Shown here: positions 5,138-16,697 of the stretch, piece after piece
Layout: each line of letters starts with the position of its first letter
Numbering within the stretch: position 1 is the first letter of the stretch
The notes under the pieces: model-generated
The model's database searches: none
Told to the model about the DNA's origin: nothing
What the model saw: only the letters and a program-made list of their open reading frames with translations
Position numbers and translations under genes: made by a program
Virus record (IMG/VR): IMGVR_UViG_3300042389_000121
Location: 1 to 23,080 of that record
Strand: one strand, 5' to 3'
Length of the DNA stretch: 23,080 nucleotides
Origin: a virus

Positions 5138-5145
5138 CAAAGATA
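5138..5145 (-). promoter_or_regulatory. Bacteroidota-type -7 promoter box before the acetyltransferase gene
   Basis: The minus strand reads TATCTTTGTA, matching TAnnTTTG, with only seven bases between the box and the ATG at 5130. No TTG was found at the expected -33 distance. If active, the transcript would be almost leaderless. It shares its ten bases exactly with the boxes at 13221 and 16690. Confidence 0.5.
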
Positions 5146-5153
5146 TTAATTTT

Positions 5154-5948
5154 TTACGGATAACTTTTCATAACGGATGATTCTACTGCAAACAGCTCTA
5201 TATGTGATGTTGAGTCATTCTCCAATTCAAATATACAGTAGTGTCCTAATACCCCATGCGATTCAGCAACCGAGTTTTTTACGAACATAAAGTAGGCATC
5301 TACAATTGGTATAGTTACAAGTGGTAGGTTCTGAACGGTAATCTTATTTATGCCATTAGGAATATCTACTGTAACGAGATAAACCTCCCCTGCATAGATA
5401 GGATTAGTATATGGGGGAATAGCGTAATAAAGAGTATCCCCACAGCTTATGATGTTTCCTATTGATACAAGTGGTGATATGGAGAAGTTTACCTCTACCA
5501 ACGAAGGAAGTAACGTAACTAATGACTCTCCCCTTCCGATCCCATTTATCGACCTTAACACATACTCATCTGATGATGCAGGGATTGAACCTGAGTTTCT
5601 TACAAATGCAAAGAACGACTGCTCCTTCTTCTCAAACCATGCCTCATCAATGTACCCCGTGTTCTGCATATCAGTAGTCAATGATGCTCCCCATGCAGCA
5701 TCTCCCTCTAAGTTTAATGTCTTAAAGAGTTTGTTTACAAGAGGCTCATCATTAAACACGCTACGAATCTTTGATGTGTATTGCTGTCCATAAAAGTTAT
5801 TACGGATTGGATGTGAGTTATGCTTGTACAGGTTGCCATTATTAAATGAGTAGAAATTATTATTCATCCCAATCATCCAATCGGGGATGTAAGAATAAAA
5901 TGAAGCCCATCCTTGCGCTCCCTCGCTAAATGTTAGTGTATATTCCAT
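5154..5948 (-). CDS. Virion structural protein, 264 residues
   Basis: A beta-rich, aromatic protein with few charged clusters. The N-terminal third carries the pattern GWASFYSYIPDWMIGMNNNF (residues 13-32), followed by NNGNLYKHN and later KLFKTLNLEGDAAW. I recognise this as a conserved hypothetical family often placed beside, or fused to, the large tail protein in uncultured Bacteroidota phages. The rest looks like a beta-sandwich. No signal peptide or enzyme motif is seen. It follows the 305-residue protein after ten bases, with no promoter in between, so it belongs to the tail unit. A place on the tail exterior or tail tip is inferred. Confidence 0.7.
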   Translation of the reverse strand: MEYTLTFSEGAQGWASFYSYIPDWMIGMNNNFYSFNNGNLYKHNSHPIRNNFYGQQYTSKIRSVFNDEPLVNKLFKTLNLEGDAAWGASLTTDMQNTGYIDEAWFEKKEQSFFAFVRNSGSIPASSDEYVLRSINGIGRGESLVTLLPSLVEVNFSISPLVSIGNIISCGDTLYYAIPPYTNPIYAGEVYLVTVDIPNGINKITVQNLPLVTIPIVDAYFMFVKNSVAESHGVLGHYCIFELENDSTSHIELFAVESSVMKSYP

Positions 5949-13206: not shown

Positions 13207-13220
13207 CTGAATCTTTTTTA

Positions 13221-13252
13221 CAAAGATAAATAAAAAAGAAAAGGGGATACAA
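13221..13252 (-). promoter_or_regulatory. Bacteroidota-type promoter for the ring/tail unit
   Basis: The minus strand carries a -7 box TATCTTTG (13228-13221) and a TTG at 13252-13250, separated by 21 bases. This fits the TTG/TTTG -33 and TAnnTTTG -7 arrangement known for Bacteroidota housekeeping promoters. The leader to the ATG at 13206 is 14 bases after the box. The -33 element falls in the loop region of the overlapping terminator. Confidence 0.6.
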
Positions 13253-13264
13253 TTTGCATCCCCT
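13231..13264 (-). terminator. Intrinsic terminator after the 250-residue gene
   Basis: On the minus strand a seven-base-pair stem (AGGGGAT with ATCCCCT, at 13264-13258 and 13248-13242) closes over a short A/T-rich loop and is followed by TTTCTTTTTTA. It lies 28 bases beyond the TAA of the 250-residue gene and would stop transcription coming from the capsid side. It overlaps the promoter of the next unit. Confidence 0.8.
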
Positions 13265-13278
13265 ATTCAATTATAGTT

Positions 13279-13287
13279 GATTAGATT
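13279..13287 (-). repeat. GATTAGATT word, spacer copy 1
   Basis: The nine bases GATTAGATT (plus strand) lie between the stop of the 250-residue gene and its terminator. The same word occurs in the spacers at 14053-14066 and 16671-16679. It is short and could be chance in A+T-rich DNA. Confidence 0.35.
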
Positions 13288-13291
13288 AGCA

Positions 13292-14044
13292 TTATACTGT
13301 CTCCGATATCCGTTCCAAGACCTTTAGAATCTCTATTCCCTCATCTGTTTGAAGGTATGCGGATACAGCTACCATTGGGTCATCGCCAAATGGGACGATA
13401 AGCAACTTACGTTTATTTAAGGAGGTATTGAGCCACACTTCTTTTTGGTTATTTCTGAATGCAAGCAACTTATTATCAAATAGTGACTGAGTCTTTGATT
13501 GTAACTGTAATGTAGGGTCAGAAAGGATATTGAGTAGCGCAGCAGGTTCTCTTTTGGCGAATATAAGTGTATCTCTCCTGAGTTCGGATGTGGTAACCAA
13601 TGATGGGTCTTTCCCGAATAGAACCCTTGCAACCATCTCAAGTTGTTCAACACTTAACTTCCGAGCCTCAATTAAGGCATCAACCTCAAGGTTCATGGAG
13701 TCAAGAGAAATTTTAGCTTCCTTTTCTTCATCGACCTCGTTGAAAACGATTCCGTTGAGCGGATGGTAATAAAGGAATTTTTGTAAGGCGGGGTTTGTTC
13801 TCGGAACGGTTAAGAATCCGTTCTCAAATATGATAGGTTCAAGGATAGCATTCCCGTCCTGCTCATCTTCAAATGGGGACTTCTGATTTCTTGCATATCG
13901 CAATGACCTATTAACATTATTTTTTTCATCGTACCACAGTAGAGGATACCTCTTTGTATTACGTGTTGGCAGCATATACGAAAGTGGCGCTGCATTTGAT
14001 GTTAGTCGATAGACTACGTCTGATTGTGGCTGTGGAGCATTCAT
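13292..14044 (-). CDS. Capsid-associated candidate protein, 250 residues
   Basis: Unrecognised function. The N-terminal half is beta-like with RNTKRYPLLWYDEKNNVNRS, then SPFEDEQDGNAILEPIIFEN and GFLTVPRTNPALQKFLYYHP (about 90-110); the C-terminal half is helical and charged. No enzyme motif, signal or membrane segment. I associate the pattern of an ILEPIIFENG stretch followed by LQKFLYYHP with a conserved protein found next to phage capsid genes, but have no function for it. Its isolation between two terminators suggests it is made at a lower level than the capsid protein, as expected for a vertex, connector or assembly factor. A capsid decoration protein would usually be made in large amounts, so that option is weaker. 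Confidence 0.7.
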   Translation of the reverse strand: MNAPQPQSDVVYRLTSNAAPLSYMLPTRNTKRYPLLWYDEKNNVNRSLRYARNQKSPFEDEQDGNAILEPIIFENGFLTVPRTNPALQKFLYYHPLNGIVFNEVDEEKEAKISLDSMNLEVDALIEARKLSVEQLEMVARVLFGKDPSLVTTSELRRDTLIFAKREPAALLNILSDPTLQLQSKTQSLFDNKLLAFRNNQKEVWLNTSLNKRKLLIVPFGDDPMVAVSAYLQTDEGIEILKVLERISETV

Positions 14045-14051
14045 TTGATTC

Positions 14052-14066
14052 AGATTAGATTAGATT
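14052..14066 (-). repeat. Three tandem AGATT pentamers in the leader of the 250-residue gene
   Basis: On the plus strand AGATT occurs three times in a row; on the coding strand this reads as AATCT repeats ending eight bases before the ATG. The unit overlaps the GATTAGATT word also present in two other spacers here. Purpose unknown; possibly an unstructured A-rich translation leader. Confidence 0.5.
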
Positions 14067-14068
14067 TT

Positions 14069-14110
14069 AAAAAAGAAGGGAGTAGTGTCTTTGGAGACAC
14101 CACATCCCTT
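14069..14110 (-). terminator. Strong intrinsic terminator after the major capsid gene
   Basis: On the minus strand AAGGGA pairs with TCCCTT and GTGGTGTCT pairs with AGACACTAC (one G-U pair, one bulged base), giving about 15 base pairs with a CCAA loop followed by CTTTTTT. The G-U pair becomes an A-C mismatch in plus-strand RNA, so the hairpin is best formed by the minus-strand transcript. It starts 17 bases after the capsid stop codon. Confidence 0.9.
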
Positions 14111-14127
14111 AATTCGGCAATGTAAAA

Positions 14128-15573
14128 TTAGTATTGGAACAGAACGAAGTTGTTTGCGCCAAGGGTACATACTGCTCTTTCTGACAGGAAGTGAACTTCC
14201 ATTGCATCAAGAGAACTTGTGGTAGCACCACCTGCTGACCCTGTAATCCAAGTTTTGTAGCGCCTGTCTTCAGTTTCTGAAGCACGATAACGGACATGGA
14301 GGAAAGGACGTTTTGCATTCTTACCAAGAATTTGGTCATACACGGTTGTTGAACCTGCGGGAACAAGAAGACCGCTTACTATTTCTGAAGAGGCAATTGA
14401 AGAAAGACCACCACGCATTGTTGGGTCATTCAGATATTTCCAATCCGATTTGTAGAAGTCATAACCCCTACGGAATCCTGAGAATCCAAGGTTCAATGCC
14501 ATCTCAACATCGTTATCGAATAAGCCGAATGATGCTCCACCTGCTGAACCACCCGATACGTAGCCGTTTAACTGAGCCAACATATCATCGATATCAAAAC
14601 TGAAATCACGGTTAACGAAGATTACATTTTCTTCGATTGAGCCTTGTTTGTCAAGACGGGAAACAACGTTGTCGAAGTCAAGAAGTGAGGTTGGGTTTCC
14701 ACCACCCCAAACATTACCACGATTTTTAACAACATAGAAGATACCTTCAGAACCTTTATCACCTGCATCGGTATAGGTAGCCTGAGTTACAACACCCGAC
14801 CCTGCTTCGGCAGGAACTGCTTCAATCATGGATGTTTCAAGATAATCTTCAAAACGGAGACGGGTCTCATGTTCTGATTTCAGATACCATAGGTAGCCTG
14901 TTGCGCCATTCTCGGTAGTTACTTCAACCCATCCAATCTGAGCCATCTGCGAACCGCTAACAGCATATTTATCTTTTATGATAATCGGTGAGTTTGAGAA
15001 GATTTGGCTATCAGCTTCAAGCGAGCCAATCATACCTTCAGTTCCTTTTTTGAATTCAGAACCATAGATGAATACTGTACAAACTTTGTTGGCTGCGAAA
15101 GCTTGTCCTGCTGCTTCGTAGTAAGCTACAGTAAATGTAGTTGCGGTAATGGCAATGACGATACCTTTGTTGGATTTTGACGACCCATCATTAGGGGTAA
15201 TCATAACAGTCTGACCTTTGCGGATAGCAATAGCTGCTGCTGCGGGAACTAACGTGTCACTTACGGTGAAGGTAGCTGTAGATGAAGCAAACATTGCAGG
15301 CGAGGCGATGTTTGTATATTTGGTGTGTAGTCTTCCCTGCTCAGTCCATTTGATAAGGTCAGAGATTGAAGGGAGTTCAGCCCCTACCAAGCGGAGGAAC
15401 GATGCTACGGTACGATTACCATAACGTTCAAATTCTTTCTCGTATGTATCGGGAAGATACTGATTCAAGAAGTCGAAGTTGGTGATATAATTGGTAGATA
15501 ATGCTACCTGTTCGGAAGATGGACTTAACTGATATCCTCCTGTGATTGAGTTGCTTACAAATCCTGCGGGCAT
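14128..15573 (-). CDS. Major capsid protein, 481 residues
   Basis: Position after portal and scaffold, a size near 480 residues, and the N-terminal pattern FERYGNRTVASFLRLVGAEL followed by WTEQGRLHTKY (about 49-85) match the HK97-fold capsid proteins of crAss-like phages. Residues about 115-175 form a compact beta-rich segment with IRKGQTVMITPNDG and FTVAYYEAAG that looks like an inserted or surface-exposed barrel. The following region has GSQMAQIGWVEVTTE and a long helix-like stretch ETRLRFEDYLETSMIEA, which fits the spine helix of the fold. The C-terminal part is Gly/Ser-rich with RYRASETEDRRYKTW. No N-terminal propeptide or protease site is obvious. It shares a promoter with the scaffold and is followed at once by a strong terminator, as expected for the most abundant phage protein. 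Confidence 0.9.
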   Translation of the reverse strand: MPAGFVSNSITGGYQLSPSSEQVALSTNYITNFDFLNQYLPDTYEKEFERYGNRTVASFLRLVGAELPSISDLIKWTEQGRLHTKYTNIASPAMFASSTATFTVSDTLVPAAAAIAIRKGQTVMITPNDGSSKSNKGIVIAITATTFTVAYYEAAGQAFAANKVCTVFIYGSEFKKGTEGMIGSLEADSQIFSNSPIIIKDKYAVSGSQMAQIGWVEVTTENGATGYLWYLKSEHETRLRFEDYLETSMIEAVPAEAGSGVVTQATYTDAGDKGSEGIFYVVKNRGNVWGGGNPTSLLDFDNVVSRLDKQGSIEENVIFVNRDFSFDIDDMLAQLNGYVSGGSAGGASFGLFDNDVEMALNLGFSGFRRGYDFYKSDWKYLNDPTMRGGLSSIASSEIVSGLLVPAGSTTVYDQILGKNAKRPFLHVRYRASETEDRRYKTWITGSAGGATTSSLDAMEVHFLSERAVCTLGANNFVLFQY

Positions 15574-15600: not shown

Positions 15601-16668
15601 TTATTTTTTCTTGGCACTTGAAATCCTTAGTCCACGACCTGCATCGGGGTTTACGGCTTTCACTTGCATCCCTCCTTTGTTGGTTATTTCGGGTGACCGA
15701 TGTTCAGACATCTTAATGTTCTTGATGCTTTTCATTGTACCCTCTGTAGCCTCTGCAACTCCTTGCTCATAAAAGAACTTGGCAAATCGCTCAGGATGCA
15801 TTGCAACAGACAAAGCCCGATGATATCCTACTGCATCCTTCATGAGTCCGTTCTCGTCCAAAAACTTATTGATAAAGTTTGTTGGGGTGATTTGATTCTT
15901 CTTCAGTTCGGTTGCATCCGCAGGGGTATACGTTATTTTTTTGCTGTCTATATTGAACTCAAAACCTTTGAACTCAGTACTAAACACCTCATCGGTCTTT
16001 TTCAAGAACCAATCACGTTTACGATTAGCGGATTCTAAATCGGTATTTGCCTCTTTAATATATTGTTTGTAAGCCTTAAAGTCTTCTTCGTCTTCTGAAG
16101 AACGTCCAACCACACTTGACTCAAGGGGCTGTTTGTATTTCTCCTTCTGTTCGTTGAAAAACAATTTAGCTTTAGCAACAATCTTTTTCTTTTCCAACTT
16201 GGCTTTTTTAATAACCGAGTCGTCATCAATATCCTCATCATATGAGTACTGCTCCATCATTGTTTGGATGTCATCCTTATCAAGCCCTTTCTCGGTAGCA
16301 GAGAAGTATTCCATCAGCATCTCATCTTGATTCATTGTATCAAAATCTTTTCTGAGCCTAACAAAATCTTCAATTCCTCGTCCTGTTTCCTTCTTGTATT
16401 TGAAGTACGCAGCAACATCCTCAGGCAATGGTTCAGATTCTTTCCTTTCTGAGAGTAACTCGTCAAAGGATTTAATCTCTTTATTGTATCGCTTTCCAAT
16501 ATAAGAAAGAACGTCTTCTTCTTTTAATTCTAATTGCTGTGTAATAGGATCAATAACCTCAGGTATAATACCTGCATCATTATCTTCCTTTTTTTGTATT
16601 AGTTGTGCCTCTATCTGCTGAATTGATTTCGGCTCAACCGAGTCCAATGCTTTTACTGTGAATTCCAT
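15601..16668 (-). CDS. Scaffold-like protein, 355 residues
   Basis: Located between portal and major capsid protein. The protein is highly charged and helical, with acidic blocks (DEDIDDDSVIKKAKLEKKKI near residue 143) and coiled-coil-like lysine/glutamate repeats. The last 20 residues are glycine- and lysine-rich, ending GRGLRISSAKKK, which resembles the basic capsid-binding tail of phage scaffolding proteins. No enzymatic motif or protease active site is visible. A scaffold that organises capsid and portal during procapsid assembly is inferred from place and composition. The alternative is a structural protein that stays in the head. A promoter-like box lies 21 bases before its ATG and no terminator separates it from the capsid gene. 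Confidence 0.7.
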   Translation of the reverse strand: MEFTVKALDSVEPKSIQQIEAQLIQKKEDNDAGIIPEVIDPITQQLELKEEDVLSYIGKRYNKEIKSFDELLSERKESEPLPEDVAAYFKYKKETGRGIEDFVRLRKDFDTMNQDEMLMEYFSATEKGLDKDDIQTMMEQYSYDEDIDDDSVIKKAKLEKKKIVAKAKLFFNEQKEKYKQPLESSVVGRSSEDEEDFKAYKQYIKEANTDLESANRKRDWFLKKTDEVFSTEFKGFEFNIDSKKITYTPADATELKKNQITPTNFINKFLDENGLMKDAVGYHRALSVAMHPERFAKFFYEQGVAEATEGTMKSIKNIKMSEHRSPEITNKGGMQVKAVNPDAGRGLRISSAKKK

Positions 16669-16670
16669 TT

Positions 16671-16679
16671 GATTAGATT
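16671..16679 (-). repeat. GATTAGATT word, spacer copy 3
   Basis: The same nine bases as at 13279 and within 14053-14066, here in the leader of the scaffold-like gene, immediately before the ATG on the coding strand (AATCTAATCAA then ATG). May simply reflect a preferred translation leader. Confidence 0.35.
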
Positions 16680-16689
16680 TAATTTTTTA

Positions 16690-16697
16690 CAAAGATA
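16690..16697 (-). promoter_or_regulatory. Bacteroidota-type -7 promoter box before scaffold and capsid genes
   Basis: The minus strand reads TATCTTTGTA, matching TAnnTTTG, 21 bases before the ATG at 16668 and just after an A/T-rich spacer behind the portal stop. No clear TTG at the -33 distance. Its position before the two most highly needed structural genes supports a late promoter. Confidence 0.55.

Follow-up and report, generated by a model that had tools for sequence, protein, structure and literature searches.

Phage T7 offers the closest described parallel to the locus reported here. Its single terminator Tphi stands right behind the capsid gene, and PMC5592923 describes read-through of Tphi as the sole source of the products of genes 11 and 12, which come after gene 10. 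T7 has its own RNA polymerase and a tail gene behind the capsid gene, whereas the phage studied here carries host-type promoter boxes and, in that place, a gene of the crAss "gene 75" type. In crAss001 and phi14:2 it is probably the host RNA polymerase that transcribes the late genes, according to PMC8375218 and PMC10136315; the former describes strand-specific RNA-seq of crAss001 and the latter, where it deals with crAss-like late transcription, treats it as one block. Bacteroidota sigma-A promoters are a further point of reference. Like the promoter candidate described below, they have an exact TAnnTTTG -7 box and a short leader, the box being placed at -12 to -5 by the convention given for F. 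psychrophilum in PMC9723704; unlike them, our candidate has no conserved -33 TTG, and a terminator hairpin takes its place. Terminators behind capsid genes and promoters behind terminators are both already known kinds of element. For these phages, we found neither a hairpin behind the capsid gene nor a terminator fused to a promoter described in the open-licence literature; the same goes for a link between such a joint and the gene-75 type, for the occurrence of the hairpin across crAss lineages, with or without a U-tract, and for a transcriptome of phi38:1. An Rfam search gave nothing near threshold (best 22.6 bits, 58.7 needed).

The window, by which we mean the whole 23,080-base virus record that was analysed, carries on its minus strand the gene order terminase, portal, 355-aa protein, capsid, 250-aa protein, ring, 307-aa protein and 1541-aa virion protein, "ring" being the name given by the initial annotation to the 247-aa gene. 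The host is probably of the Flavobacteria type. By capsid protein identity the nearest named phage is MW202828 (74%), followed by Maribacter phage Panino (51%), the Flavobacterium elemo phages (about 44%) and Cellulophaga phi38:1 and Calle (41%); a PDB sequence search with the capsid protein matched nothing. The nearest named and classified relatives belong to Elemovirus and Pervagoviridae, both outside Crassvirales; the gene-75-type family and the order of the head genes are found in the window and in Crassvirales alike. Relatives' loci were taken as the best 80 from one scan of viral contigs. A homolog of the 250-aa gene is present in 76 of them, the other four (L006, L011, L021, L073) ending right after the capsid gene, and 77 rows, including the window, were used. 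We call the spacer from the capsid gene to the 250-aa gene SP1 and that from the 250-aa gene to the ring gene SP2. Spacers of up to 130 nt were counted as short, which applies to 70 of 77 SP1 and to 54 of the 69 readable SP2 (window included); the longer ones hold additional sequence, with inserted genes in those inspected. A plain promoter and terminator scan was rejected as evidence, with 8 terminator-like sites in 12 kb and 7.0 in shuffles. Since these counts lie so close together, conservation among relatives was used as evidence instead.

Table 1. Features of the late-gene region of the window (positions from the first letter of the record).
Feature	Positions	Strand	Basis
First ring/tail-unit gene, 247 aa	12463..13206	-	phrog_14543, virion structural protein; phi38:1 gp095 virion structural
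Predicted P2 transcription start, near 13216	13214..13218	-	inferred from box position and PMC9723704 convention
P2 -7 box TATCTTTG, ring/tail genes	13221..13228	-	TAT[CA]TTTG in 54/54 short SP2
T2 U-tract, adjoining the -7 box	13229..13241	-	sequence
T2 terminator stem-loop, 10 pairs, 3-nt loop	13242..13264	-	54/54 short SP2; the -34 region of P2 holds the loop
TTG, "-33" of the initial annotation	13250..13252	-	present in the window; not conserved
250-aa gene, "gene 75" by place, predicted RecA C-terminal-domain-like C-terminus	13292..14044	-	family profiles, models, PMC7886860
AT-rich leader AAAATCTAATCTAATCTGAATCAA of the 250-aa gene, without TAnnTTTG	14045..14068	-	similar leaders follow the 355-aa promoter
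T1 U-tract	14069..14075	-	directly 3' of the stem
T1 post-capsid stem-loop	14076..14110	-	hairpin with U-tract in 66/70 short SP1
Major capsid protein gene	14128..15573	-	phrog_13704, head and packaging; Calle_1 homolog annotated major capsid protein
355-aa head-region gene, 5' of capsid, place of crAss gene 77	15601..16668	-	phrog_16786 (unknown function); synteny
-7 box TATCTTTG, probable promoter of 355-aa and capsid genes	16690..16697	-	box in 67/69 homologous spacers

We read this region, with a probability of roughly 0.6, as a punctuated late operon. The host RNA polymerase would start at the TAnnTTTG promoter 5' of the 355-aa gene and transcribe the 355-aa and capsid genes. Transcription would mostly stop at the stem-loop T1, or a stable 3' end would be left there, giving much capsid mRNA. 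The 250-aa protein would be made from the fraction of transcripts that passes T1, its gene having no recognisable promoter of its own here; T2 would end this read-through fraction, and P2, with its box directly after the T2 U-tract, would start the ring/tail unit afresh. The case for one promoter serving the 355-aa and capsid genes, with read-through into the 250-aa gene, is made by where the boxes are: a TAnnTTTG box precedes the 355-aa gene in 67 of 69 loci, none is found in the 78 spacers between that gene and the capsid gene or in the short SP1, and on the minus strand of the window none lies between 16690 and 13228. The positions, the conservation, the pairing and the separability of terminator and promoter box are direct observations. 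Termination strength, read-through, start sites and protein dose are what we infer from them. The two joints predict where the capsid mRNA ends, which conserved gene product is scarce and where transcription of the ring and tail genes restarts.

The initial annotation had placed two hairpins, two U-tracts, a TATCTTTG box and a TTG on the minus strand of this region, and all of them are there. Both G+C-rich stem-loops are stable (MFE -21.2 kcal/mol and z -5.3 for T1, -18.2 and -5.8 for T2), none of 200 shuffles being as stable in either case. At T1, a hairpin with at least five T behind it occurs in 66 of the 70 short SP1 spacers (best 80 loci plus the window) against 3.9% of dinucleotide shuffles, so that, by sequence, a terminator directly follows the capsid gene in nearly all of them, as Tphi does in T7. 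The four misses are L012, L033, L034 and L052. In L033 and L034 a hairpin whose loop is larger can be seen, and L012 has one when a later start codon is assumed. A consensus fold of 29 aligned spacers, hand-picked from 69 (window included) as the more similar ones, has 12 pairs, 10 of them with compensatory changes, and pairing was kept in 107 of 140 double stem changes between close pairs, which are not independent of one another.

A stem-loop behind the capsid gene is also found well outside the window's own group. By eye it is present in 16 of 19 named phages and not clearly so in Fpv2, cr114 and ProJPt (a short one only). Three systematic sets were restricted to the 75 nt behind the capsid stop and to distinct sequences, and both the hairpin score and the rule for a U-tract were stricter than those of the short-spacer count. 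Hairpins were found in 66 of 70 sequences of the window group (from 76 loci, window excluded; 4.0% in shuffles), in 47 of 47 from crAss001-capsid loci (from 63 loci; 9.6%) and in 45 of 59 from cr4_1-capsid loci (from 80 loci; 3.0%), and TAnnTTTG occurs in none of the three sets within these 75 nt. Control positions in the crAss001 and cr4_1 sets rarely gave a hairpin, whether behind the stop of the next gene (2/37 and 3/48), before the capsid start (0/35 and 0/41) or inside the capsid gene (1/52 and 5/60); the hairpin is therefore specific to the region just behind the capsid gene. Its U-tract is optional, and the hairpin need not be a terminator: U-tracts accompany 54 of the 66 hairpins in the window group, 35 of the 47 in the crAss001 set and 6 of the 45 in the cr4_1 set. 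This is a difference from T7 Tphi, as the post-capsid hairpin persists without a U-tract in some crAss lineages. The initial description of T1 as a strong terminator therefore does not capture what is conserved, since the Crassvirales hairpin often lacks the U-tract. Double stem changes in the two crAss sets kept pairing at rates near chance (7/13 and 11/19), and consensus folding of the crAss spacers gave no common structure. Most relatives examined keep both the capsid-gene hairpin and the fused terminator and promoter, and the hairpin recurs in gut crAss phages; high capsid output combined with low output of the next gene may thus be an old arrangement.

Because the hairpin is particular to the capsid end and its U-tract is optional, a post-transcriptional role is kept as the main rival to the punctuated operon. 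The post-capsid hairpin would then be mainly a 3' stabiliser of the mRNA or a processing site, acting against 3'-5' decay and separating the mRNA of the next gene, with termination secondary. We consider this a possible, if somewhat improbable, explanation. The cr4_1-capsid loci speak for it, 39 of the 45 hairpin-bearing ones having no U-tract and the hairpin at the same place, with few hairpins behind the next gene's stop and none before the capsid start. It has to contend with the other two sets, in which the hairpins come with the U-tract that an intrinsic terminator needs at rates far from those of shuffles (0.4% for the window group and 0.9% for the crAss001-like set).

The second question concerns the expression of the 250-aa gene. 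A TAnnTTTG box is found in none of the 70 short SP1 spacers, which is rarer than in shuffles (4.0%), and the leaky expression proposed by the initial annotation fits this absence. Likewise, the conserved spacers support the separate capsid, 250-aa and ring/tail units that it had envisaged. It is unlikely, in our estimation, that the gene has a non-canonical promoter of its own in SP1, recognised by a phage-specific or alternative sigma factor, with T1 simply insulating it. No variant box (TA..TTG[CT], TA...TTTG, TA.TTTG, TA..TT.G or TATAAT) was enriched across the 70 spacers, although a promoter that these patterns miss may lie in SP1 or inside the capsid gene. In favour of such a promoter, a canonical box does stand in SP1 of four named phages: behind the hairpin in MW202828, whose capsid is 74% identical, and in elemoF, as TAATTTTG in cr118, and in Fpv2, which has boxes in both SP1 and SP2 and no hairpin in SP1. 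By these four, a promoterless gene behind the capsid is not universal. A further point in its favour is that nine hairpin-less cr4_1-capsid spacers have the motif CGTTA[TC] in common.

That motif was seen in 9 of 56 cr4_1-capsid spacers (L106, L107, L112, L113, L115, L116, L120, L128 and L147). All nine are among the 15 loci without a hairpin, and the motif is possibly a promoter in the hairpin's stead.

At the other end of the 250-aa gene, the order of elements is fixed. All 54 short SP2 spacers (best 80 loci plus the window) show a hairpin, then a U-tract, then a TAT[CA]TTTG box, with shuffle rates of 3.4% for the hairpin and 11.4% for a TAnnTTTG box (dinucleotide shuffles). In every one of them the box begins 0-11 nt past the hairpin, with the ATG 13-18 nt further on, and the overlap of terminator and promoter box described by the initial annotation recurs in all 54. 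The loop centre lies 18-26 nt upstream of the box, where a -33 element would sit. The start predicted from the box, near 13216, is 2 nt from the 13214 given earlier, and the leader would be 10 nt long. The same joint is found in MW202828, elemoF, phi38:1 and Calle_1. An exact DNA pattern for it proved too strict, matching only 2 of 5 named phages.

The -33 TTG did not survive comparison as a conserved element. In the window it is present in the terminator loop region as claimed, straddling the 3-nt loop and the 3' arm. Among the 54 SP2, a TTG starts at -24 to -22 in 8 (2.7 in shuffles), at -26 to -20 in 11 (6.0 in shuffles) and at the exact position of the window in 4, with TTTG in 1 or 2; it is enriched yet absent in most. 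P2 is termed a promoter candidate by its -7 box, since the TTG is not conserved. The promoter of the 355-aa gene, which has no terminator just upstream in 64 of 66 loci, also shows few (TTG at -26 to -20 in 5/66, 4.1 in shuffles), and because the element is scarce at both promoters these phages may do without one. The nine nucleotides at -12 to -4 contain a mean of 8.0 T in SP2 and 3.9 at the mostly terminator-free 355-aa promoter, and the T-run ahead of the SP2 box is part of the terminator.

The joint is not a general promoter design of these phages, since, of 49 boxes ahead of open frames counted over the window and stretches of five named phages, 7 are joints by a counting rule that missed elemoF SP1 owing to its spacing. 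Terminator and promoter box are separable modules. In Panino and phi13:2, where genes have been inserted into SP2, the terminator stays by the 250-aa homolog and the box by the ring gene; in 15 window-type loci with a long SP2, the joint stands ahead of the ring gene in 14 and behind the 250-aa gene in 11.

Closeness of this kind could serve to recycle polymerase, RNA polymerase that releases its RNA at T2 staying on the DNA and restarting at P2. E. coli polymerase is described as diffusing on DNA after termination and reinitiating nearby in vitro (PMC6978380), and the 0-11 nt between hairpin and box in all 54 SP2 would suit such a restart. We nevertheless find recycling quite improbable: the published reinitiation needs no such closeness, the evidence for it does not come from a Bacteroidota polymerase, and the counterparts of T2 and P2 are far apart in Panino. 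The initial annotation had raised the opposite effect, read-through at T2 interfering with P2, so that upstream flow would repress P2 through the overlap. A terminating polymerase can be expected to cover the -7 box, which the U-tract adjoins. A terminator just ahead of a promoter normally lessens read-through interference, and the order of terminator, then promoter, kept in 54 of 54, would rather insulate P2; interference is very improbable. It is hardly credible that the T2 inverted repeat controls P2 by binding a protein or forming a cruciform. In favour of this, all 54 short spacers have the loop in the -34 region of P2; against it, the letters of the stem vary freely, with 45 distinct 5' arms in the 54 spacers, and what is kept is pairing and U-tract. 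Double changes in SP2 stems retained pairing in 36 of 47 cases between close pairs, which are not independent, and consensus folding of 49 of the 54 spacers gave no common pairs; both here and in the crAss spacers, consensus folding probably failed on hairpins in differing registers.

In the punctuated operon, the gene predicted to be scarce is the one behind the capsid, and its kinship bears on what it may do. The 250-aa protein has no Pfam match and matches two PHROGs of unknown function. By profile comparison (hhalign), its family is related to the crAss001-like family of 28 sequences (E 6e-6, probability 85) and the cr4_1-like family of 27 (E 3.8e-5, probability 71), which match each other at E 1e-20 and probability 99. 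Comparison with the single proteins crAss001 gp33 and phi14:2 g090 was not significant (probabilities 2 and 0.9). The family profiles thus group the 250-aa gene with its counterpart behind the capsid of crAss-like phages; the name "gene 75" rests on the gene order in PMC7886860, the profile comparisons having covered the crAss001-like and cr4_1-like families. The gene and its homologs, gp33 among them, sit directly downstream of the capsid gene; in cr114 the distance from the capsid gene to the annotated start is 922 nt.

The gene behind the capsid is annotated as a RecA protein in crAss phages, and crAss001 gp33 as a double-stranded DNA-binding domain. An AlphaFold model of the 250-aa protein (65 of 71 sequences) has a pLDDT of 84.9 and a pTM of only 0.53, and matches viral models of phi14:2, Gundel_1 and crAss-like viruses (11 with E <= 0.001); Foldseek against PDB gave nothing at E <= 0.001. 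VIA-align on Foldseek candidates superposes modelled residues 179-250 on the RecA C-terminal domain with Z 8.1 and rmsd 1.9 over 58 residues, the first non-RecA row having Z 5.8. This Z of 8.1 lies near the tool's "common" level and counts only together with the Z of 11.4 of a cr4_1-like homolog (L118; model pLDDT 86.8, pTM 0.54), whose residues 184-250 align with RecA C-termini at rmsd 1.1 over 60 residues, with 76 of 156 chains reaching Z 8. The predicted fold is thus common to both proteins. PDB sequence searches gave nothing reliable for the 250-aa family (best E 0.17), the C-terminus of D. radiodurans RecA at E 0.19 for the cr4_1-like family, and only RNA polymerase subunits at E 0.32 and above for the crAss001-like family. 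The RecA ATPase core was not seen in the 250-aa protein, and a role as a RecA recombinase was rejected: there is no Walker A motif ([AG]xxxxGK[ST]) and no Pfam match, and RecA aligns with residues 177-250 only. The main text of the crAss001 structure paper mentions gp33 0 times, and in phi38:1 the homolog, flanked by genes for virion structural proteins, is entered as hypothetical. A protein with little or no presence in virions would agree with both, silence being all that they offer.

A wider proposal can be put forward tentatively, and we think it less than probable. Throughout the order, the post-capsid stem-loop, conserved in place and not in sequence, may set the dose of the next gene post-transcriptionally; the RecA-C-terminal-like product of that gene would probably be a DNA-binding assembly factor. 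The output added to the stem-loop would vary with the lineage: a U-tract, making it a terminator, in the window group and in crAss001-like phages, for the most part nothing in cr4_1-like phages, and a Shine-Dalgarno-like leader in crAss001-like phages.

Such leaders were seen in the crAss001-capsid loci (L186-L248), where GGAG or AGGA lies 5-18 nt before the gene behind the capsid in 37 of 40; the gene after that has one in 6 of 33 cases and the capsid gene in 0 of 39. By a looser rule, 6 of 25 late genes of crAss001 have one (gp31, gp33, gp35, gp38, gp43 and gp46). These leaders are odd because ribosomes of Bacteroidia are reported in PMC9976891 not to recognise the Shine-Dalgarno sequence, those lacking bS21 favouring an extended one.

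Several smaller observations concern the spacers. The -7 boxes of the two late promoter candidates differ, the 355-aa gene being preceded by TAACTTTG in 32 of 66 and the ring gene solely by TAT[CA]TTTG (54/54); a difference in timing is possible. The sequence AATCTAATC recurs on the minus strand in three window spacers (at 16679, 14066, 14061 and 13287), in two of them directly 5' of the start codon, and looks like an AT-rich translation leader. Cassettes inserted in SP1 of L008, L010, L013, L014 and L016 encode, by eye, small basic lysine-rich proteins, and genes of about 100 codons are inserted in SP2 of L030, L036, L065, L074 and others, several of them in tandem in L065; at both joints the inserted cassettes are mostly flanked by hairpins on either side.

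Elsewhere in the window, a TATCTTTG box at 5138-5145 (minus strand) ends 7 nt before the ATG of a 136-aa gene, whose mRNA would be nearly leaderless; MW202828 has a gene of equal length in the corresponding place, and its annotation is acetyltransferase subunit. A 264-aa protein encoded at 5154-5948 (minus strand) matches parts of larger profiles, including those of the virion structural phrog_38031, phrog_15100 and phrog_14478, a pattern that would fit the splitting of one large protein over several genes.
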